NCBI GenBank assembly: GCA_002696685.1
Contig: NZSI01000060.1
Span: 1,901 to 10,828, forward strand
Source: Chloroflexota bacterium
GTDB lineage: Bacteria; Chloroflexota; Dehalococcoidia; SAR202; UBA826
Length of the DNA stretch: 8,928 bases
Direction: 5' to 3'
In this document: positions 1 through 8,928 of the stretch, in pieces
How the letters are laid out: each line of letters begins with the position of its first letter
How positions within the stretch are numbered: position 1 is the stretch's first letter
Notes under the pieces: generated by a model
The model's input: the letters and a program-made list of their open reading frames with translations, nothing else
Told to the model about the DNA's origin: nothing
Database searches by the model: none
Program-made: the position numbers and the translations under genes

Positions 1-541
1 GTTTGTTGTGGTTGCTTTCGGTGATAAATTTGCGCCTAGTGCTACCTTCATGACAATATCAGCATTTTCCATTTTCCCGAGTGTGGTTGCTTGGTTTCTA
101 CCTAATCTACTCATTTCGAATGCAAAAACAGGCGATGCGTTTCGACTCACACTTTTAAACCTTTTTACAAATATAGGGGTCGCGGGAACTACAATATGGT
201 TTGGCATCGAAGTTATGTTGACATGCATGGTAATTGGCGCATTTTTGTCTCTTCCTGTAAGGCTTTGGATTGTAAACAAACACGTGCAGATTGACTTTAA
301 GTCGCTAACAAAGTCATTGTTACCGCCTTCAATATCGGCGCTACTTATGTTTTTCTTTTTGATGATGTTAAAAACACATCTTGAGGGGCAGTTTCAAAGT
401 GATGTGCTTATCTTGTTGATACTTGTGTTCCTTGGTGCGCTTCTTTATCCATTATTTCTATTTGGTCTATTTTTTAGGTCGGCAAAACTACATACTTTAG
501 AGTTAAAAGCCATGTTTTTAAAAGGCGAAGCCAAAAGGTAG
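1..541 (+). CDS. Polysaccharide (oligosaccharide) flippase, C-terminal part
   Basis: This is the 3' end of a gene entering from the left edge; the frame is open from base 2 and stops with TAG at 539-541, leaving about 179 residues. What remains is a very hydrophobic protein with four or five membrane segments: the region after VAWFLPNLLIS, a pair around FTNIGVAG to SLPVRLWIV, one at SALLMFFFLMML, and a last one at VLILLILVFLGALLYPLF. A short basic tail (KGEAKR) follows. This layout matches the last third of Wzx/MATE-like flippases of the MOP superfamily, which move lipid-linked sugar repeat units across the inner membrane. The family call rests on topology and the flanking polysaccharide genes, because no diagnostic motif survives in this fragment. 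Another multi-pass exporter is possible. It is probably the last gene of an exopolysaccharide operon extending left. Confidence 0.7.
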   Translation, partial: FVVVAFGDKFAPSATFMTISAFSIFPSVVAWFLPNLLISNAKTGDAFRLTLLNLFTNIGVAGTTIWFGIEVMLTCMVIGAFLSLPVRLWIVNKHVQIDFKSLTKSLLPPSISALLMFFFLMMLKTHLEGQFQSDVLILLILVFLGALLYPLFLFGLFFRSAKLHTLELKAMFLKGEAKR

Positions 542-708: not shown

Positions 709-1302
709 ATGAAATTTTTCACTGGTTTAGCATTTTTGGTGCTGTCATTAAATGCTAACGCGGCATTTATCACCTTTAATCAGTCAAACTTAAGCGGCCA
801 TGGTGCTCAGGCGACTAGCGGTGGTTTTAACGTTACTAACGGCGGTCTAAATCTTGAGGTTTTTGGTAACTATTGGGCGAGCTTGGCGCCAATTGATATC
901 GCAATGCTTAAGGATAGTGTTTTATCATTCGATTTTATGACAACTAATGCTGGTGAAATTAATGGCATTGGGTTTGATAATGACGGCGAAATCAGAACAG
1001 GCGGCCTAGTTTTCAATTTTGGTGGTACGCAGAATTATGGTAATCAAGACTTTGCTCGCCCCCTATCTGCTAATGTCTGGTATAACATCACCATAGATTT
1101 TTCAGATTATGATTTAACTGGTTTCGATAGAATGCTTTTCATCGCGGACCAAGACCAAGCTGGCAGAAGCACGACGTCGAATTTCAGAAATCTATTAGTA
1201 ACAACACCTTCGAACGTTGTTGATGTTCCCGCACCGGGAACTGCGTTAATGCTTGCTCTCGCACTAGTGGGTATTGGCTTCACCGCTCGACGAAAGCTTT
1301 AA
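709..1302 (+). CDS. Secreted PEP-CTERM sorting-domain protein
   Basis: The product has 197 residues. The ATG at 709 is chosen because AGGAG (697-701) lies 7 bases upstream and because the in-frame TTG at 676 falls inside the promoter. Residues 1-19 form a signal peptide (KFF, a hydrophobic core, then NANA-A). Residues 173-197 form a PEP-CTERM signal in its VPAPG variant: the VPAPG motif, one hydrophobic helix (ALMLALALVGIGF) and a basic end (ARRKL). Such tails are recognised and cleaved by an exosortase at the inner membrane, and the proteins usually accompany exopolysaccharide biosynthesis; no exosortase gene lies in this window. The body, residues 45-166, has no cysteine and looks beta-rich. 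It shares a clear module with the C-terminus of the beta-helix lipoprotein at 3385-5892 (G53-N-x-W56, P61-I-D63, E83-I-x-G-x-G-F89, G106-T-Q-N-Y-G111). The molecular function is unknown; a role in binding polysaccharide or in biofilm or floc structure is inferred. It is flanked by its own promoter and terminator. Confidence 0.9.
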   Translation: MKFFTGLAFLVLSLNANAAFITFNQSNLSGHGAQATSGGFNVTNGGLNLEVFGNYWASLAPIDIAMLKDSVLSFDFMTTNAGEINGIGFDNDGEIRTGGLVFNFGGTQNYGNQDFARPLSANVWYNITIDFSDYDLTGFDRMLFIADQDQAGRSTTSNFRNLLVTTPSNVVDVPAPGTALMLALALVGIGFTARRKL

Positions 1303-1323
1303 TCATTGCAACAGCTAAATTCT

Positions 1324-1349
1324 AAAACCACGCGAAAGCGTGGTTTTTT
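1324..1349 (+). terminator. Strong intrinsic terminator after the PEP-CTERM gene
   Basis: AAAACCACGC (1324-1333) pairs perfectly with GCGTGGTTTT (1338-1347) around a GAAA tetraloop, and a T run continues to 1349. It starts 21 bp after the TAA at 1302. The A tract in the 5' arm gives the minus strand a T tract, so it may also stop transcription arriving from the converging sulfotransferase operon. Confidence 0.9.
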
Positions 1350-1525
1350 GTTTTTGTATTGTTGATATCTTCAACACAATCAAAATCGGCGGTTTTACAT
1401 TAATATCCCAGCACTGGTAAATAAGGTGATTCTAAGCCAGTTATTCCACCGCTGGCTTTGTGTATTTCACTACGGAACAAACGTTTTATCAAAGCTACAA
1501 AATGTTTGTTATTGATTTTCGACTG
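1350..1525. other. Convergent intergenic region with two weak inverted repeats
   Basis: This spacer separates the PEP-CTERM terminator from the stop of the converging sulfotransferase gene. I see no gene in it. It holds two imperfect hairpin candidates: AAGCCAG (1434-1440) with CTGGCTT (1452-1458), and AACAAACGTTTT (1476-1487) with AAAATGTTTGTT (1499-1510), the latter with one G-T pair. Both have 11-base loops. Neither is followed by a convincing T run on the minus strand, so they are weak terminator candidates at best. Confidence 0.4.
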
Positions 1526-2335
1526 TTAACTAAATAATATTTCTTTGAGCTGCTTTTTCTTACTTTTCAGTCCCAAAGCCAAGTCTATATCTAATAAAAT
1601 TTCACTGTGCTTACTTTGCAAAAACTTTTCCTTCCACTCTTCATTAATGCCGTTTGACTGTTTCTTCGTAGCAGGCGATAAGGTCACGTTCTCTAACGGA
1701 AGGTCAACTTCCATGAAATCTGCTATTGCGCAAACTGTGTGAGGAAGTTTAGCTCTTGCTTCTTCGAACGTTATCTCTATGTATTTCAAACCAGTTGAGG
1801 CTAGCAAGTATTTCCATGAGGCATTGTGCAAGACAGTGCGCTTCAAACAAAAACAGATATCCTCCTCGTCGTATTTTACGTTTTCAGACATAGCTTGTTG
1901 ACCTGCGATCCACACGCCAGTTTGGCGTGCTATCGATAAAGAGATAGCCTGATTTAAAATATCTCGGCGCGTCAGCATAACGAAGTGGGGATTATCCAAT
2001 GATTGAGCAAACTCTCTCAAACCTCCAAATTGCTGTAAGTGAGAGAAATGCGCTTTTATAGAAAATATGCCGTTAGAAGAGGTACGTTTAGTTTTAAGTG
2101 TATCCAGCACGTTTTTTACGCCTTTCACATTTAACACTTCCTCCCATCTCGCTAAATTTGTAGGGTTCGCATATTCTAACGGAAAGCCAAAGTGGTTGGT
2201 TTGGTGCAGTGCATGACCTAGAAAGTGACTACCTGAACGAGGTGTAGATGCAATCACTAGTGTTTTCTTTACTGAAGTACATTCTTTAAAATTATGAATT
2301 TCGTTGAACTGGTCTTCGTACAGGTGTTGTTCCAT
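1526..2335 (-). CDS. Stf0-type sulfotransferase
   Basis: The 269-residue product fits the PAPS-dependent sulfotransferases of the Stf0 family, whose founding member is the mycobacterial trehalose 2-sulfotransferase of similar length. Residues 30-39 (STPRSGSHFL) are the 5'-phosphosulfate-binding loop. G50-F-P-L-E54-Y follows, where the family carries its proposed catalytic glutamate. K94 sits in FSIKAHF. Residues 119-142 (VMLTRRD, then QAISLSIARQTGVW) are the family's characteristic 3'-phosphate-binding segment. There is no signal peptide, so it should act in the cytoplasm, transferring sulfate to a sugar or lipid-linked intermediate. The gene lies 21 bp downstream of the pyruvyl transferase gene on the same strand, so the two are probably co-transcribed. 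The ribosome site is modest (GGGG, 8 bases before ATG). The acceptor cannot be read from sequence; its setting suggests the exopolysaccharide or its precursor. Confidence 0.88.
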   Translation of the reverse strand: MEQHLYEDQFNEIHNFKECTSVKKTLVIASTPRSGSHFLGHALHQTNHFGFPLEYANPTNLARWEEVLNVKGVKNVLDTLKTKRTSSNGIFSIKAHFSHLQQFGGLREFAQSLDNPHFVMLTRRDILNQAISLSIARQTGVWIAGQQAMSENVKYDEEDICFCLKRTVLHNASWKYLLASTGLKYIEITFEEARAKLPHTVCAIADFMEVDLPLENVTLSPATKKQSNGINEEWKEKFLQSKHSEILLDIDLALGLKSKKKQLKEILFS

Positions 2336-2356
2336 AACTATTGCCCCAGGTCTTGC

Positions 2357-3202
2357 TCAATTAGTCTGTTTGTACTTATCGAAAGGAAAGCTACTGAGTA
2401 AGTCAGTCTGTTTTGCCCTCAGATTTGGGATAGGTGATGTTTCTAATTCCATACACTCTTCAATTGATGTGCCAACAGCAAATTCTGTTCTTCCGGTTCC
2501 CTCGTAGTAATCGTGGTATTTAAAAATGTTTTCACCACTACCTGAACTGTAATAAACCGCAGGGATTCCATACGCTTCAGCCAGAATTAAGCCGTGTAAA
2601 CTACTTGCTATCACTTTTTTAGCCTTCGTCAATCTACCTAAAAAATTCCCAGGAAGCTGCCTAGGTGACACCAGCTGGTTTTTGTACTCGGAATATATCG
2701 ATAAATCATCATTAAGCTGCGGAACAATAAGAACGTCTTGAGTGTCGCCCGCGTAGACAGTGTTTAACTGAGCTTTTGGGTAAATAAGAGGCGCTAAAAT
2801 TCCTGGATCACCGAATATTTCAGGCACTGTGATTCCCTTTTTCTCAAGGTAATCCTTTGTGCGAGGCCCGCGTACTGAGCGGACGTCAAGGGATGAAAAC
2901 ACGTGCTTTTCCGGCGATATTTTGCCATTTCGTCCAGTTCCCCAAACGGTGTCACCATCGTTTGCGAAGTGTAATACGGAGCCAATAGAGAGAATTTTAC
3001 CGGAAGAGATATCGAGCGGGTGTAGGTCTTTCAAATTGAGTACAAAGTTTACCGTTTCAAACGCGAGGTAATCGCCGATATTGGGAAGTCCGCTCTTGGG
3101 ATTCCAAAAATAGTTTTTGGTTTGCTGGTGTAATGCCTGTTTAACTTTAGATGGCGTTTCTTGAGAAATTTCTTGTTTAGACTTGAAAAGTTTGTTGAAC
3201 AC
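2357..3202 (-). CDS. Polysaccharide pyruvyl transferase family protein
   Basis: The 281-residue cytoplasmic protein matches the polysaccharide pyruvyl transferase family (ExoV/CsaB type), which transfers pyruvate from phosphoenolpyruvate to sugar hydroxyls to form a ketal. Visible landmarks are NIGDYLAFETVNFVL (41-55), GSVLHFANDGDTVWGTG (74-90, close to ExoV), SVRGPRTKDYLEKKGI (109-124), GDPGILAPLIYP (131-142) and the C-terminal ASSLHGLILAEAYGIPAV (199-216), which contains the conserved S-x-H-G signature. The start is GTG at 3202: no in-frame ATG lies nearby, and an AAAGAG stretch sits about 10 bases upstream. Some homologues act in other polymers, so pyruvylation is inferred from family and neighbours. 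The gene leads the pair with the sulfotransferase, and a strong hairpin (3262-3298) separates it from the lipoprotein gene upstream. Confidence 0.85.
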   Translation of the reverse strand: MFNKLFKSKQEISQETPSKVKQALHQQTKNYFWNPKSGLPNIGDYLAFETVNFVLNLKDLHPLDISSGKILSIGSVLHFANDGDTVWGTGRNGKISPEKHVFSSLDVRSVRGPRTKDYLEKKGITVPEIFGDPGILAPLIYPKAQLNTVYAGDTQDVLIVPQLNDDLSIYSEYKNQLVSPRQLPGNFLGRLTKAKKVIASSLHGLILAEAYGIPAVYYSSGSGENIFKYHDYYEGTGRTEFAVGTSIEECMELETSPIPNLRAKQTDLLSSFPFDKYKQTN

Positions 3203-3261
3203 GAATTGTACTCTTTTAGTAATAGTGATATGTCAAATAAGTAAACTGCCCAGGTAAATTA

Positions 3262-3298
3262 AACGCATTGAAAATTGACAGTTACTTTTCAATGCGTT
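3262..3298 (-). terminator. Perfect 13-bp hairpin, likely terminator of the beta-helix lipoprotein gene
   Basis: AACGCATTGAAAA (3262-3274) and TTTTCAATGCGTT (3286-3298) are perfect inverted repeats around an 11-base loop. On the minus strand the stem is followed by TTAATTTA, a moderate U-rich tail, and it lies 86 bp after the lipoprotein stop. This fits an intrinsic terminator that separates the lipoprotein gene from the pyruvyl transferase gene. A weak tail leaves room for read-through. Confidence 0.6.
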
Positions 3299-3384
3299 GT
3301 TTCACTGAACTAAAGCAAGTTCTATGCTAGAAAACCTGCGTAACGATAAGATGAACGATAAATAGAAGGACTTAATTAATGTCA

Positions 3385-5892
3385 TTAGTAATTTGAACGA
3401 GATGTCAGAGTAACGTTAGAAAATGTAACTTTTATGTCGTTATTTTTCTGGCTTACGTCATCATAGTCCAAAACAAAGACAAGATAGTTTATGTCGCCCT
3501 TTACAAAATTTCCAAGTGGGAATGTTATCTGGCTGCTTGATTGAGAAAAGTACTTTAAAGCATTTATTCCCCAGTTTTGTGTACCAAAAAAGCGAATAAC
3601 TCTTTTGCTGCTAATATCGTTATCTGTTTCAAAGCCAAGTCCAATAATTTCTGGGTTACCTCCGCCTTCAATCAGTAAAGTAGCTGTCAATTCGGTACTT
3701 TTAACGACATTAAAATCAATGGGGATCTTAACCCAACTGTTACCTGCTATTGCTATGCTATCGCTATCAACAATAGTCGTTTCACCATAATCATGCTGTT
3801 TTGCAAATGGCGTAATTGAAACATTGTCAGTGTTTAACTTCCAATAATTAGGATCAACAGCATTCGCCTGCTCTAAATCTAATGGTTCAAAAGATTCGTC
3901 ACTTGAGTGCTTTGAAAAATTAGGAATTGGCGTAACCATTTCTCTATCCATTGCGGATTGGCCAGCCTGAATAAGTGACTCTACATACGCTAGATTATCA
4001 GATTTAGGGTGCTCAATTAGTTGAGCTAAATTAAATTCATATCTTGCGCCCGTTACTTCATGGTTGAAACAAATGTCGTTAGTACTGGTGTTCTTAAAGT
4101 ACTTTTCAGTATCAAAAATGCAGTAACCTACAGAGTATCCAGTGTTATCTGTCAAGATGATGTTGTTTTGTGATTCTATCCAAAACGTTGTATCACTATT
4201 AACTTTTGAGGCTGCGATACCGTTACGATCAACATCAATTACATTTTCAAAAATATACGTTTTACCAGCAGGACGAGCGATTAGCCCGCCAGCTTTAATT
4301 GCGGTCCACTCTTTGCCCGTTTCATCGCCTAGGTTGTGAATGTGGTTATGAAAAATATAACTTGGGCCTAGCATATTTGGGGCAATGCTGATTCCAGCAT
4401 ATCCTTGCTCCATTTCGTTTCCATACACCAAGACATTTTGTTGACCGCCATCTATTTCTATCAGGTCATCATTAGCATAGGCCAAATAATTATTATAAAT
4501 AGCCGAGTTTCTTACGAATCCTCCGCGTCTTTCAAAATTCTTTCGACCTTCTATAACATCATTAAATCTATGGTTTGGGGCACCATAGAAGCGATTGTTT
4601 CTAACAATAAACTCGCCTCTGTAAGCATCGCTATCATGATATGCCCATACTTGAAGTGCGTTTGCACCTTTTGGGTGCCCAACTTGCCAGCTATTGGCAC
4701 CTAAGTTTGGGCTGTGCACTTCGCACTCTTCAATCACAGCAATACCGCTTCGCTCTAAATAGATGCCAGAGTCGTAGTTGATAGGAGAGTTCGTTGTTGG
4801 GCTTGCATAGGCTAATCCATCGCGAATATCTACTGCTTCACGACCGAATTCTGATACATTGCAGCCTTTAATCCATATATGGTGCGCTTTTTTCGCAAAA
4901 ATGCCGTAGCGCTGGCCGCCCTTTATCGTCAAGTTCTCAAGCATAACATATGATTGCGCACCAATATTCACAGCGGCCAGATCATCACTAGAAGCCTCTA
5001 TAACTTGACCGTCTCCAATGATTTTTGCATATCCATCAGCACTACCGCTTATATTAAGTGCCTCTAGATCCAGTTGACCTCCTGAGTAAATATCAGATAA
5101 GTAGTAAATTTTTTCTGGATCAATTGGCGGTGAATTTGGTTTAGTTTTGGTCTGAAAAACATGCTCTTGTTGTTCACCATTTTGGTCGGTAATTCGAACT
5201 TCAATATGGTAGGTCGTGTCTGCATTTAGGTACACAATGCTGCCAGCGAAAGAACCGTAAACTGGTTCCCATGATAAGTTCAAGCCTTTCTGCCAGCGCA
5301 TTTCATCGTCTGCTCTGAAACGAACAGTAGCGGTGCTAGTTTCGTCTTGCCCGTAGATAACTATTCCGATGGAGTTAATTAAGGGAGTAACGGAGTCCTC
5401 GAAACCCGCTGCTGAGGCTTTGAAAACAATAGAAGGATCTAATCCTGCGGCAATTGCTGATTCGTAAACTTCATTTTCAGCTAATTCTGAATGTATGGAA
5501 ATGAGTTTCATCCATTTTGCTGTATCGATAGGGTAGAGTGAAAATAGCGCGGTAGACTCTTCTGTAGTAATCGATTGCAAACGCGACTTTATCTCGTCGC
5601 TATTAGTTGAAGGAGTAATATCCAAAACTTTTTTGGTAAATAACTCGGCAATCTCGTTGCGATATAGCTTTATGTGACGTTTAGCTTTTTTTGAACCGTC
5701 ATATTTAAGTAGGAGATCATTGATATTGTCTGGTTGAGCGTTGTTAGCCAGCAAATAAGTGTTTAACTTTTCGCCTGGTTGAACGGCATATGTTGTGGCT
5801 TCGCGTTTATGAGAACTGCTCGTGCATGAAACGATTAAGAATGCGCTAGCGAATATTAGCCAAATGGAACCCGCAGAAATTCGAAAATTCAT
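3385..5892 (-). CDS. Outer-membrane lipoprotein with right-handed parallel beta-helix and C-terminal shared module
   Basis: This is an 835-residue protein. Residues 1-22 are a lipoprotein signal peptide ending in IVS before C23. The residue after it is T, not D, so Lol sorting to the outer membrane is expected. Residues 35-170 are a mostly helical region whose start (VQPGEKLNTYLLANN) faintly resembles LysM-like folds. Residues 175-250 look like a fibronectin type III-like beta domain ending in HVFQTKTKP. Residues 262-600 are a long parallel beta-helix with repeated short strands and Asn-rich turns (VMLENLTIKGG, FIVRNNRFYG, VLVYGNEMEQG, YIFHNHIHN, YIFENVIDVD). Beta-helices of this kind occur in polysaccharide lyases, epimerases and hydrolases, but I cannot assign catalytic residues. 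Residues 700-831 form a beta-rich module shared with the PEP-CTERM protein at 709-1302. The ATG has an AAGGA ribosome site (5899-5903) 6 bases upstream. It diverges from the glycosyltransferase gene. Binding, trimming or epimerising the secreted polymer is inferred. Confidence 0.85.
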   Translation of the reverse strand: MNFRISAGSIWLIFASAFLIVSCTSSSHKREATTYAVQPGEKLNTYLLANNAQPDNINDLLLKYDGSKKAKRHIKLYRNEIAELFTKKVLDITPSTNSDEIKSRLQSITTEESTALFSLYPIDTAKWMKLISIHSELAENEVYESAIAAGLDPSIVFKASAAGFEDSVTPLINSIGIVIYGQDETSTATVRFRADDEMRWQKGLNLSWEPVYGSFAGSIVYLNADTTYHIEVRITDQNGEQQEHVFQTKTKPNSPPIDPEKIYYLSDIYSGGQLDLEALNISGSADGYAKIIGDGQVIEASSDDLAAVNIGAQSYVMLENLTIKGGQRYGIFAKKAHHIWIKGCNVSEFGREAVDIRDGLAYASPTTNSPINYDSGIYLERSGIAVIEECEVHSPNLGANSWQVGHPKGANALQVWAYHDSDAYRGEFIVRNNRFYGAPNHRFNDVIEGRKNFERRGGFVRNSAIYNNYLAYANDDLIEIDGGQQNVLVYGNEMEQGYAGISIAPNMLGPSYIFHNHIHNLGDETGKEWTAIKAGGLIARPAGKTYIFENVIDVDRNGIAASKVNSDTTFWIESQNNIILTDNTGYSVGYCIFDTEKYFKNTSTNDICFNHEVTGARYEFNLAQLIEHPKSDNLAYVESLIQAGQSAMDREMVTPIPNFSKHSSDESFEPLDLEQANAVDPNYWKLNTDNVSITPFAKQHDYGETTIVDSDSIAIAGNSWVKIPIDFNVVKSTELTATLLIEGGGNPEIIGLGFETDNDISSKRVIRFFGTQNWGINALKYFSQSSSQITFPLGNFVKGDINYLVFVLDYDDVSQKNNDIKVTFSNVTLTSRSNY
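3388..3795 (-). other. C-terminal module shared with the PEP-CTERM protein
   Basis: This covers residues 700-835 of the lipoprotein. Its motifs occur in the same order as in the PEP-CTERM protein body: G717-N-S-W720 with P724-I-D726, E748-I-I-G-L-G-F754 followed by acidic residues and I760, G770-T-Q-N-W-G775, then V-F-V-L-D809-Y-D811 and F824-S-N826. The stretch from E748 to I760 aligns without gaps to E83-I95 of the other protein. I do not recognise a named domain. A beta-sandwich carbohydrate-binding module is a reasonable guess. Confidence 0.7.
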
Positions 5893-6193: not shown

Positions 6194-7300
6194 ATGAAGA
6201 AAAAAGTAGCAGTTATCCACCCCGAAGCTGGGTTTTCGTCGAGCGGTGGATCGCAATTAAGTGCTTATGAGATGGCAGAGCACCTCGCAAAGTTTTTTGA
6301 TGTTAAGTTATTAAGCTCATCCAAGTGTAGTGAGTTCAGCGTTGTAATTCCTTGTATTCCAAGGGGAAAAGTAAAAAAAGCACAGCGAAATAAAATAGTA
6401 GATTGGTTTTTAACTAGATTTGTGTCCAACCCTTCCTTACTCATTGAATCTATTACAAGTTTTTTGACTTACACCCCTTATTTAATTTTTAAGCGGTGTG
6501 ACGTTATTTATCCCAACAATGATTATGGTGGGCTTGCAGTTGCAGTAGTTATAAGAAAGCTGTTCAAAACACCTATCCTCTACACCGAAAGGGCTGGAAT
6601 GGTTTCGAATGGTAAGGTCTTACGTCGCAACTTGAAATTTAAACCTGACTGCTTAGTTGTATTTAATGAAGAAACGAAAGCTTATGTACATTCAATTGCT
6701 CCTAAACAAAGGGTTGAGATAATCCCAAACGGTGTGAATTTAGGTAAATTTAGCCCAGAAGGCGAGAAATTTGACCACGGTTTAAATGGAAAAATCGCTC
6801 TTACTGTAGGTGCGTTGAACAAGCAAAATCACAAACGTATCGACTTGGCTATTGAGGCTGTAAGTCAATTAAACGATGTTTCTTTATTAATTTGTGGTGA
6901 CGGTCCTGATGTTCAATTTTTTGCAGACCTTTGTGAGGAAAAGCTAGGAAAGGGACGCTTTAAAATAGTAAAGGTTGATTTTGCAGATATTCCCAAGGTG
7001 TACAGGTCTGCTGATGTATTTACACTACCTTCAGTCGATGAGCCATTTGGTAGGGTTTACTTAGAAGCAATGGCGAGCGGGCTTCCAGTTGTTGCTACTG
7101 ATGATGCTATGAGAAGAGTCTTAATAGGACACGCTGGACTGGTTTGTGATGTTACTAACCCGAATGAATACGCCACAGCCCTAGTCTCTGCACTAGAAAA
7201 GGAATGGAATAACGCGCCAATTGAACAATCTTTGGATTTTAGCTGGGAAACAGTAGCGCAACGTTACGCGGAAGTAATTGAGAGCCTTATCCCCAAATAA
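6194..7300 (+). CDS. Glycosyltransferase family 4 protein
   Basis: The 368-residue protein has the GT-B two-domain layout of retaining GT4 enzymes. The N-terminal acceptor domain begins KKKVAVIHPEAGFSSSGGSQ (2-21), with the glycine-rich loop typical of the first strand. The C-terminal nucleotide-sugar domain shows IIPNGVNLGKF (176-186), TVGALNKQNHKRIDLAIEA (204-222) with the basic K214/R215, ICGDGP (233-238), and the E-x7-E motif E283-PFGRVYL-E291 followed by AMASGLPVVATDD. It should transfer a sugar from a nucleotide donor to a lipid-linked acceptor at the cytoplasmic face of the inner membrane; donor and linkage cannot be read. The ATG at 6194 has only a weak TGGA ribosome site, but an upstream in-frame ATG (6152) soon hits a stop and the N-terminal strand begins exactly here. 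The OpgC-type gene follows after 50 bp and is probably co-transcribed. Confidence 0.9.
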   Translation: MKKKVAVIHPEAGFSSSGGSQLSAYEMAEHLAKFFDVKLLSSSKCSEFSVVIPCIPRGKVKKAQRNKIVDWFLTRFVSNPSLLIESITSFLTYTPYLIFKRCDVIYPNNDYGGLAVAVVIRKLFKTPILYTERAGMVSNGKVLRRNLKFKPDCLVVFNEETKAYVHSIAPKQRVEIIPNGVNLGKFSPEGEKFDHGLNGKIALTVGALNKQNHKRIDLAIEAVSQLNDVSLLICGDGPDVQFFADLCEEKLGKGRFKIVKVDFADIPKVYRSADVFTLPSVDEPFGRVYLEAMASGLPVVATDDAMRRVLIGHAGLVCDVTNPNEYATALVSALEKEWNNAPIEQSLDFSWETVAQRYAEVIESLIPK

Positions 7301-7350: not shown

Positions 7351-8331
7351 TTGAGAGATAACAGGATTGATTTAATACGTGGTTTTGCAATGGTGACCAT
7401 CTGCGTAAATCACATAACTTGGATGTTGGGTAAAGTAGAAAGTGTCAGTCTAAAAATACCGACTCTGACTCATTATGGTTACTCTTCAGCGGCGGAAATA
7501 TTCTTTTTTATGTCGGGTTACATGGTTGGAATGGTTTATTTAAACAAATTTGATACTCGAGCTAAGCTATTGAGCCGGGCGTTCCATCTTTACAAAGTAA
7601 ATATCACTCTATTCATATCATTAGTTCTTATTAGTTTAGCAACTCCTAATGAACATTTTTTAGCGTTGACAGACTTAGATTATTGGGTTGATAACATCCC
7701 AATTGCGTTAGTCCAATACATGAGCCTCTTTTATGGGCCAATGTTTACAAATTTACTTTTCACTTATGTTCTACTCTTAATAATTGCTATTCCTTTCACC
7801 AAGCTCCTTCAAAAGAGTGCGATGACATTTATTCTGGCAATTACAGGGCTTTACATCTTCTCGCAATATTTTCCCATGATGAAACTAACTAACGTAGCTA
7901 CATCTGATGGAAAGTGGAGCTTTAATCTTTTCTCTTATCAATTTCTATTTATGCTAGGGCTCTTTGCCGGAGACCGAAAAATAATTAATCGAGTGTTTGA
8001 GAGAATCGATAGAAACACAGTGCTATGGAGTGCGCTGTCTGTGGGGACTCTAGTCGGGTTCTACGCTATTAAACGCTATGACCTGCTTGGCTTAAAAGGG
8101 CAGTGGTGGATCGCGAAGGAGACTTTAGGGCCAGTTAGAATTTTACATTTCTTTGTCGTGATAACAGTACTGATGAGCTTGTTGTCTGTATTTAAAAAGG
8201 TGCTAAACATCTGGCCAATTACAGTTATTGCCCTAATAGGAAGGCAGTCGTTAACTGCATTCTACGTTAGTGTTGTGAGCTGCTACATCGCACTTGCTAT
8301 ATGGATCTCAAACTCTGTGTCCGTCCGGTAA
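7351..8331 (+). CDS. OpgC-type membrane acyltransferase, C-terminus probably truncated by IS66
   Basis: The 326-residue multi-pass inner-membrane protein starts NRIDLIRGFAMVTICVNHI (4-22), followed by HYGYSSAAEIFFFMSGYMVG (41-60). This is the hallmark of the OpgC family, whose E. coli member adds succinyl groups to periplasmic glucans. About eight to nine hydrophobic segments are visible, the last at residues 300-319 (SLTAFYVSVVSCYIALAIWI) after the GRQSL motif. Family members usually run to about 360-400 residues and continue past this motif. Here the frame stops at SVSVR-TAA, exactly where the flanking IS66-type sequence begins, so the last part is probably missing. Activity may be lost. 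In this locus it would O-acylate the exopolysaccharide or a periplasmic glycan. The start is TTG, supported by AGGA 7 bases upstream. It sits 50 bp behind the GT4 gene in the same direction. Confidence 0.82.
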   Translation: MRDNRIDLIRGFAMVTICVNHITWMLGKVESVSLKIPTLTHYGYSSAAEIFFFMSGYMVGMVYLNKFDTRAKLLSRAFHLYKVNITLFISLVLISLATPNEHFLALTDLDYWVDNIPIALVQYMSLFYGPMFTNLLFTYVLLLIIAIPFTKLLQKSAMTFILAITGLYIFSQYFPMMKLTNVATSDGKWSFNLFSYQFLFMLGLFAGDRKIINRVFERIDRNTVLWSALSVGTLVGFYAIKRYDLLGLKGQWWIAKETLGPVRILHFFVVITVLMSLLSVFKKVLNIWPITVIALIGRQSLTAFYVSVVSCYIALAIWISNSVSVR

Positions 8332-8359
8332 TCCCCACATTCAATTCATAAATTAGCTA

Positions 8360-8401
8360 CGGCATGGTGTTCTCTTTTTGTTAAGGAGAATGACCATGCC
8401 G
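8360..8401 (+). promoter_or_regulatory. Long hairpin enclosing the tnpA ribosome site and start codon
   Basis: CGGCATGGT (8360-8368) pairs perfectly with ACCATGCCG (8393-8401), which contains the tnpA ATG (8396-8398). Inside it, 8370-8377 pairs with 8383-8390 (one G-U pair), covering the AAGGAG ribosome site (8383-8388) and leaving a TTGTT loop. In a transcript reading through from opgC, both ribosome site and start codon would be paired, which would reduce transposase translation. Confidence 0.65.
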
Positions 8402-8716
8402 CAATATCAACGAAGAGAAGTGCAAGACTGGCTCAATTTATTCGAGCAGCAAAAGCAAAGCGGGCTCACCGCAGTGGCGTTTTGTCGCCAACAGCAGATT
8501 AATGTTCAAACTTACTACACCAGGCGTCGTGATATTCGGTTACAGCGAACAAGCAACAAGTTTGTTCAGGTGAAACGTGAAGTCACGAAGGTTGAATCCT
8601 ACACCGAAGCAATGGGTGGCGAACTTCTCCTGCAACTTGGAAATGCTCAACTTAGCGTGCCAATCAATATTAACCCTCACTGGGTTGCTACCGTGATGAA
8701 GGCATTGTCCGAATGA
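8396..8716 (+). CDS. tnpA: IS66-family accessory protein TnpA
   Basis: The 106-residue protein begins PQYQRREVQDWLNLFEQQKQ, then SGLTAVAFCRQQQINVQTYY (22-41), a helix-turn-helix-like segment typical of IS66 TnpA, followed by a basic stretch (TRRRDIRLQR). The C-terminal half ends in a beta-rich segment and HWVATVMKAL. IS66 TnpA is a small accessory protein, probably DNA-binding, required with TnpB and the DDE transposase TnpC for transposition. The start is placed at 8396 because AAGGAG (8383-8388) lies 7 bases upstream; the in-frame ATG at 8390 is only one base from that site. The stop overlaps the tnpB start (ATGA at 8713-8716), implying translational coupling. The ribosome site and start lie in a long hairpin. 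Confidence 0.88.
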   Translation: MPQYQRREVQDWLNLFEQQKQSGLTAVAFCRQQQINVQTYYTRRRDIRLQRTSNKFVQVKREVTKVESYTEAMGGELLLQLGNAQLSVPININPHWVATVMKALSE

Positions 8717-8928
8717 AGATGTTCGTAGAGCCTGCTGACATTTACCTGTACATGGATATCGTCGATTTCCGCAAATCGATAAATGGCTTAATTGTCGTTG
8801 TTGAGCAGGATATGAACCTGAATCCGTTTCGCGATGCACTGTTCGTCTTCCGCAACAAAAAGCGCGATAAGGTCAAAATACTCTATTGGGATAAAACGGG
8901 CTTCGCTCTCTGGTATAAACGCCTCGAG
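8713..8928 (+). CDS. tnpB: IS66-family TnpB (IS66 Orf2-like), 5' part
   Basis: Seventy-two codons are present and the gene runs off the right edge; the family is usually about 115-120 residues. The order KMFVEPADIYLYMDIVDFRK, SINGL, NPFRDALFVFRNKKRDKVKI, LYWDKTGFALWYKRLE is the standard IS66 Orf2 pattern, especially D-x-R-K-S-I-x-G-L, F-V-F-x-N-[KR]-x-R-D-K-[VI]-K and L-x-W-D-x-x-G-F. It is an accessory protein for IS66 transposition of unclear biochemical role, unrelated to the RNA-guided TnpB of IS200/IS605 elements. The ATG at 8713 overlaps the tnpA stop by ATGA; an ATG two codons on (8719) is an alternative start. Confidence 0.92.
   Translation, partial: MKMFVEPADIYLYMDIVDFRKSINGLIVVVEQDMNLNPFRDALFVFRNKKRDKVKILYWDKTGFALWYKRLE

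Follow-up and report, generated by a model that had tools for sequence, protein, structure and literature searches.

We analyzed a stretch of 8,928 nucleotides from a Chloroflexota bacterium (GenBank assembly GCA_002696685.1, contig NZSI01000060.1), here called the window, which on its gene content is part of a polysaccharide gene cluster. It encodes two proteins of different build, a short PEP-CTERM protein and a long beta-helix lipoprotein (Table 1). We are practically certain that the PEP-CTERM protein and the C-terminus of the lipoprotein share the same domain, hereafter the module. It belongs to a family of about 145 amino acids that is present in Bacteroidota, Planctomycetota, Cyanobacteriota, Chloroflexota and Gammaproteobacteria. 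An initial annotation of the window had proposed a shared module from a series of common motifs, and had placed it on two different surface-destined carriers. Both proposals are borne out by the comparisons below, the second by a PEP-CTERM tail (PF07589) on one protein and a lipobox, read by eye, on the other.

One domain on two proteins

The PEP-CTERM protein and the lipoprotein are 28% identical over 130 aligned columns (BLASTP E-value 2e-7), and none of 2000 shuffled sequences matched their score. The similarity is confined to the module, in that the part of the lipoprotein N-terminal to it scored only at background level against the PEP-CTERM protein. A profile of PEP-type copies matched a profile of lipoprotein-type copies with an E-value of 1.5e-5, so the comparison of the two segments is significant at the level of profiles as well. 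We also used an outside set of the family (alignment A10), which consists of 15 copies from 13 loci in other organisms and includes neither PEP-type nor lipoprotein-type rows. Against this set, hhalign gave E-values of 3.9e-30 for the PEP type and 6.2e-23 for the lipoprotein type. Because each matches the outside set, both window copies belong to one larger family. The possibility that the motifs coincide by chance was considered and rejected: nothing was found in its favor, and the BLASTP score, the shuffled sequences and the three profile comparisons leave it with a negligible probability.

Predicted structure of the module

The module is very probably a beta-sandwich, which is the fold of the PEP module model (predicted local distance difference test score, pLDDT, of 95). 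The full model of the lipoprotein has a mean pLDDT of 46, and we used it solely for its beta-helix match and for the strand order of its module. In this low-confidence model, the module has the same strand order as the PEP module, with block pLDDT values of 46-83 except for the last residues.

In structure comparisons, the PEP module model resembles carbohydrate-binding modules (CBMs) and lectins, specifically CBM11, CBM15, CBM29, CBM30, a porphyran CBM and legume lectins, as well as CBM4 by Foldseek. However, the structural alignments to CBMs and lectins have only 8-18% identity, the window module has no match to a CBM sequence model, and it differs from CBMs and legume lectins in its own invariant signature (N.W / E..G / G / D.D). 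In a library of viral structures, jelly-rolls of tail fibers and tail proteins were among the best matches (best E-value 6.6e-5); phage records gave no match by sequence.

Extent and definition of the family

We scanned GTDB species genomes with a 7-row alignment, which gave 283 pattern matches, 200 of them encoding relatives, and kept the best 80 of the 200 loci. These 80 loci lean to Saprospiraceae. They come from Bacteroidota (mostly Saprospiraceae, Lewinella relatives, Aquimarina and Tenacibaculum), Planctomycetota, Cyanobacteriota, Chloroflexota, Hahella and a few others. Together with one viral contig they provided 116 good module copies, or 97 once near-duplicates were removed. The viral contig (L081) encodes the module in a 601-amino-acid protein that equals one of Lewinella sp. 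W8 (L024) in length and match positions, and on that basis it is probably host DNA filed as virus.

Alignment A3 has 81 rows, namely 74 of the 97 copies and 7 PEP or lipoprotein rows. Seven residues are invariant in all 81 rows (N54, W56, E83, G86, G106, D147 and D149 in the numbering of the PEP-CTERM protein), and G82, G88, F89, Q108, G111, F144, F159, N161 and others are conserved in at least 90%. Lysine at position 40 (67 of 81 rows) and histidine at position 68 (69 of 81) are also common, and the two window copies have neither. A search with A3 matched 3 of 247 Bacteroidota, 10 of 194 Cyanobacteriota and 10 of 199 Planctomycetota genomes, which are samples that count the seed genome each time. 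The PEP-CTERM protein by itself, used as the query, had matches in 5 of 369 gammaproteobacterial genomes, and in three of these the match was weak (E-values 6e-4 to 1e-3, covering the second half or the tail). The distribution is thus scattered, often with several copies per genome.

On the searches that follow, the family is without a Pfam or NCBIfam model that fits the window copies. In Pfam, the PEP-CTERM protein passes the PEP-CTERM cut-off only and the lipoprotein passes Beta_helix only; neither passes any NCBIfam cut-off or matches a CBM model of Pfam or NCBIfam at E<=1. The PEP module alone had no Pfam match at E<=10, a Pfam scan with 7 module copies returned no family that names the module, and a PDB sequence search with two module profiles found none up to an E-value of 10. 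Ten NCBIfam models match the PEP-CTERM protein below cut-off, mostly at its tail. For the 81 rows of A3, the Pfam and NCBIfam scans list up to 25 families by E-value, with cut-offs for the first row. The best of the matches listed are the PEP-CTERM tail (2e-5), floc_PepA in 3 rows (best 7e-6), other PEP-CTERM subfamilies and CBM30 in 2 rows (best E-value 4e-4), and DUF4082 is listed for 5 rows (best 0.014). What is now defined is a compact family with a profile, limits, invariant residues and a confidently predicted fold.

Possible ligand and function

We tentatively read both copies as attachment modules of the lectin or CBM kind, and give a little under an even chance to the proposal that the PEP-CTERM protein holds exopolysaccharide while the module keeps the lipoprotein enzyme on polymer. 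In many bacteria, the module would serve as an attachment domain of secreted proteins, often in a position close to the C-terminus. The PEP-CTERM protein of the window would be secreted, pass through exosortase sorting and be presented on the cell surface, there tethering exopolysaccharide close to the cell, analogous to the apparent effect of PepA (see below). The lipoprotein would be a beta-helix enzyme of the polysaccharide lyase or epimerase type, anchored in the outer membrane, that trims or epimerises polymer there while the module at its tip holds it. The target of both proteins might be the locus's own sulfated or pyruvylated polymer. On balance, a glycan of some kind seems the likelier ligand of the module; that this glycan is the locus's own polymer is a more doubtful supposition, somewhat less likely than not.

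The proteins that carry the module elsewhere bear on these questions. The module was matched in 90 open reading frames, 14 of which are truncated at a locus end; from the 76 complete ones we took 56 mutually dissimilar carriers, in locus order up to L066. A sorting tail of the type IX secretion system (T9SS) is present in 46 of the 56, near the N-terminus in the case of L002, and a reprolysin-type protease domain in 33. Other carrier domains are MAM (10), M36 (3), trypsin-like (3), RTX (3), subtilase (2), multicopper oxidase (2) and PA14 (2). We also scanned 18 proteins singly. Among these, L070 is a pectate-lyase-like beta-helix that bears two modules at its C-terminus, L012 is a G8/CEMIP beta-helix protein, L059 a BNR-repeat protein and L046 a Spondin_N protein. 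In L004, L039 and L046 the module sits after a MAM domain. Planctomycete proteins of about 480 amino acids carry the module at their C-terminus (L124, L125, L126, L129, L130 and L135). Of the three scanned, L130 is above the FecR cut-off, L124 slightly below it and L129 without a match; such proteins possibly put the module to use in sensing a ligand.

The initial annotation had suggested a carbohydrate-binding or matrix module that recognises the polymer of this locus. The first part of this suggestion agrees with the class of the predicted fold. The second part, a locus-specific role, is weakened because the family spans several phyla and most of the sampled carriers are secreted proteases. 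That the module would also link exosortase sorting to the beta-helix protein, as the annotation proposed, is a hypothesis. This protease majority and multi-phylum spread also weigh against our own proposal, in so far as it would make the module specific to polysaccharide loci. The protease majority lends some weight to a different explanation, namely that the module is a jelly-roll for general adhesion or stabilisation that has no specificity for glycans, and whose two occurrences in the window reflect general use on exported proteins. The T9SS tails, the position after MAM domains, the FecR-type fusions and planctomycete arrays with as many as six copies in tandem are also in its favor. However, the PEP-CTERM protein has no other domain found that could be stabilised, and glycan binders are frequent in this fold class. 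We regard a general jelly-roll as rather unlikely, and prefer an attachment module.

Two further observations concern carriers. The planctomycete proteins L068 and L075 have six tandem modules, followed in L068 by a subtilase domain. On the Glaciecola plasmid pGLAAG01, the module lies inside a very long protein annotated as a YD repeat protein (Glaag_4332, L140).

The PEP-CTERM protein

The PEP-CTERM protein is essentially one module plus a signal peptide and an anchor, and other domains were not found in it. Its tail scores 21.2 bits with PF07589 (cut-off 20.7) and 15.5 bits with TIGR02595, slightly below the cut-off of 16. The sequence AGGAG precedes the ATG of its gene. PF07589 did not match the distant relative P0012.

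A planctomycete protein (L132, positions 1438-2031 of the plus strand, genome G890) shares this build, with a signal peptide, a module and a PEP-CTERM tail above the PF07589 cut-off. The layout of one module plus signal and anchor is thus seen in two phyla. Both architectures of the window recur elsewhere, with L132 as a PEP-CTERM case and L070 as a beta-helix case. Genome G890 has 123 PEP-CTERM matches, and the gene directly upstream of the L132 protein (L137, 3178-3891) likewise ends in a PEP-CTERM tail.

To our knowledge, the role of PEP-CTERM proteins once they are sorted is largely unknown. With a single lectin-like domain and a build found in two phyla, the window protein makes the holding of extracellular polymer a directly testable function.

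PepA of floc-forming bacteria has a comparable signal peptide, body, PEP-CTERM tail and exopolysaccharide setting. In Aquincola flocs, PepA shifts exopolysaccharide from the soluble to the bound fraction, according to PMC9850573. The window protein differs from PepA in that its body is one copy of a family that is also found on T9SS and other proteins. The floc_PepA model reaches 17.4 bits on it, against a cut-off of 80, and no PEP-CTERM subfamily of NCBIfam is passed. This match (residues 73-196) and a sub-threshold match to QFxxD (79-195) are the two that extend into the module. A distant link between module and floc_PepA may exist, although much of the match is probably the tail, and divergent forms of the module fold may be present in further PEP-CTERM families.

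The lipoprotein and its variable tip

The lipobox (IVSC) ends at C23 and, like the Fn3-like stretch, was read by eye. A right-handed beta-helix is indicated by Beta_helix (E-value 3.6e-10) and by the model, in which the body appears to resemble polysaccharide lyases and epimerases: the AlgE/AlgG mannuronan C-5 epimerases, an alginate lyase (6kfn) and RbmB, the Vibrio polysaccharide lyase of V. cholerae biofilm clusters (13% identity). Unlike RbmB, the lipoprotein has a lipid anchor and about 200 extra N-terminal residues, and the solved chain of RbmB (368 residues, with the alignment reaching its residue 396) is too short to include a module at the C-terminus. Among PDB sequences, the lipoprotein had 9 matches at E<=10, none of them a lyase or epimerase; the best was a weak one to glycoside hydrolase family 110 (E-value 0.0016). 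In the motif N-D-D-L-I-E-I-D, D475 and E479 are invariant across 8 rows that include four distant ones, and are candidate active-site residues. No relative of the lipoprotein was found in viral contigs.

On the Persicobacter plasmid pPP1, a distant relative of the lipoprotein body (L097; 570 residues, ending shortly past the helix and without a module) adjoins GH88 (glycoside hydrolase family 88) and sulfatase genes. This neighborhood would suit an explanation in which the module binds a glycan of algal or other outside origin, and the lipoprotein is a scavenging enzyme. Some close relatives of both window proteins carry the name Alteromonas macleodii, of a marine genus, which points the same way. 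However, the other recognised genes of the window are for synthesis or decoration, not degradation, and we consider an outside glycan improbable.

The tip of the lipoprotein, which spans the last helix turns and the module, is variable. Identity to relatives is 95-98% in the first 540 residues and falls sharply to about 48% in residues 538-835. As a query, residues 30-690 matched 396 proteins, and residues 690-835 matched only P0013, which is 99% identical to the window lipoprotein over the regions searched. P0013 was compared with four of the 119 further proteins in the list. With P0014 (827 amino acids) it shares 531 of the first 540 columns and 138 of the following 285, and P0051 and P0019 give nearly the same counts. 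P0013 and P0132 share 512 of 540 columns and then 137 of 280, and for P0014 and P0132 the counts are 519 of 540 and 195 of 280. These pairwise identities among P0013, P0014 and P0132 imply three tip forms on one conserved body.

PMC4033161 describes homologous recombination of islands for surface structures in aquatic bacteria. The tip might be exchangeable in this way, and a bolder proposal can be built on it. The module would be a new glycan-recognition family, used by the locus as a matched pair of exosortase-anchored receptor and outer-membrane lyase or epimerase. Recombination would swap the tip together with the neighboring sulfotransferase and pyruvyltransferase genes, both proteins would read the strain's own decorated exopolysaccharide, and the pair would be a counterpart of the Vibrio RbmA/RbmB/RbmC kit made from unrelated parts. 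As a whole, this proposal is unlikely to be correct. An Alteromonas genome with the whole locus was sought, with no close match in three class samples (369, 369 and 284 genomes, apparently with overlap) or in an order sample of 4; a PF04230 search in genome G366 was empty.

History of the two copies

A 59-row tree was made by taking alternate sequences from the 97 copies and adding PEP, lipoprotein and Gloeothece rows, and a quick tree was made from 60 rows. In the former, each window copy has its own orthologues as nearest neighbors; in the latter, the PEP and lipoprotein groups are apart, on long branches. One could suppose that the two copies stem from an old duplication within the lineage and merely resemble a shared toolkit. 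Constraining the PEP and lipoprotein clades as sisters is compatible with this, as the approximately unbiased test did not reject it (p-AU 0.239). However, each copy joins its orthologues, on a long branch, instead of the other copy, and the copies are only 28% identical, so that such a duplication appears improbable. The alternative would be that the two proteins recruited the module independently.

Gene map of the window

The assignment of the window to a polysaccharide locus in the initial annotation agrees with matches to a Stf0 sulfotransferase, a pyruvyl transferase, a family 4 glycosyltransferase (GT4), an OpgC-like acyltransferase and, weakly, the end of a flippase.

Table 1. Positions of genes and features in the window
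Feature	Position	Strand	Basis
Flippase-like gene end	2-541	+	Wzx model E-value 1.5e-7, far below cut-off; weak match
PEP-CTERM protein gene, 197 aa: signal peptide, one module, exosortase sorting tail	709-1302	+	PF07589
Shared module in PEP-CTERM protein, residues 20-166	766-1206	+	BLASTP, 81-row alignment, outside profile, model pLDDT 95
PEP-CTERM tail, residues 172-196: V-P-A-P-G-T, hydrophobic stretch, ARRKL	1222-1296	+	PF07589
Terminator-like hairpin with T run, directly 3' of PEP-CTERM gene	1324-1347	+	
Stf0-type sulfotransferase	1526-2335	-	Family model match
Polysaccharide pyruvyl transferase	2357-3202	-	Family model match
Beta-helix lipoprotein, 835 aa: lipobox, Fn3-like stretch, right-handed beta-helix, C-terminal module	3385-5892	-	Beta_helix 3.6e-10
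Lipoprotein variable tip, residues 538-835	3385-4281	-	Identity drop against relatives
Shared module at lipoprotein C-terminus, residues 691-835	3388-3822	-	BLASTP, profile-profile matches, strand order
Lipoprotein beta-helix region, residues ~249-625, resembling RbmB, AlgE/AlgG, alginate lyase, tailspikes	4018-5148	-	
Conserved acidic motif N-D-D-L-I-E-I-D, lipoprotein residues 474-481	4450-4473	-	
GT4 glycosyltransferase	6194-7300	+	Pfam/NCBIfam match
OpgC-like membrane acyltransferase	7351-8331	+	Family model match
IS66 accessory gene (TnpA)	8378-8716	+	

The terminator-like hairpin is the one found in its region, where shuffled sequences have a mean of 1.0. At the edge of the polysaccharide genes, positions 8317-8928 are the start of an IS66-type insertion sequence. 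A plasmid search with the window DNA gave matches confined to this end, which is 84-85% identical to copies on Paraglaciecola and Glaciecola plasmids.

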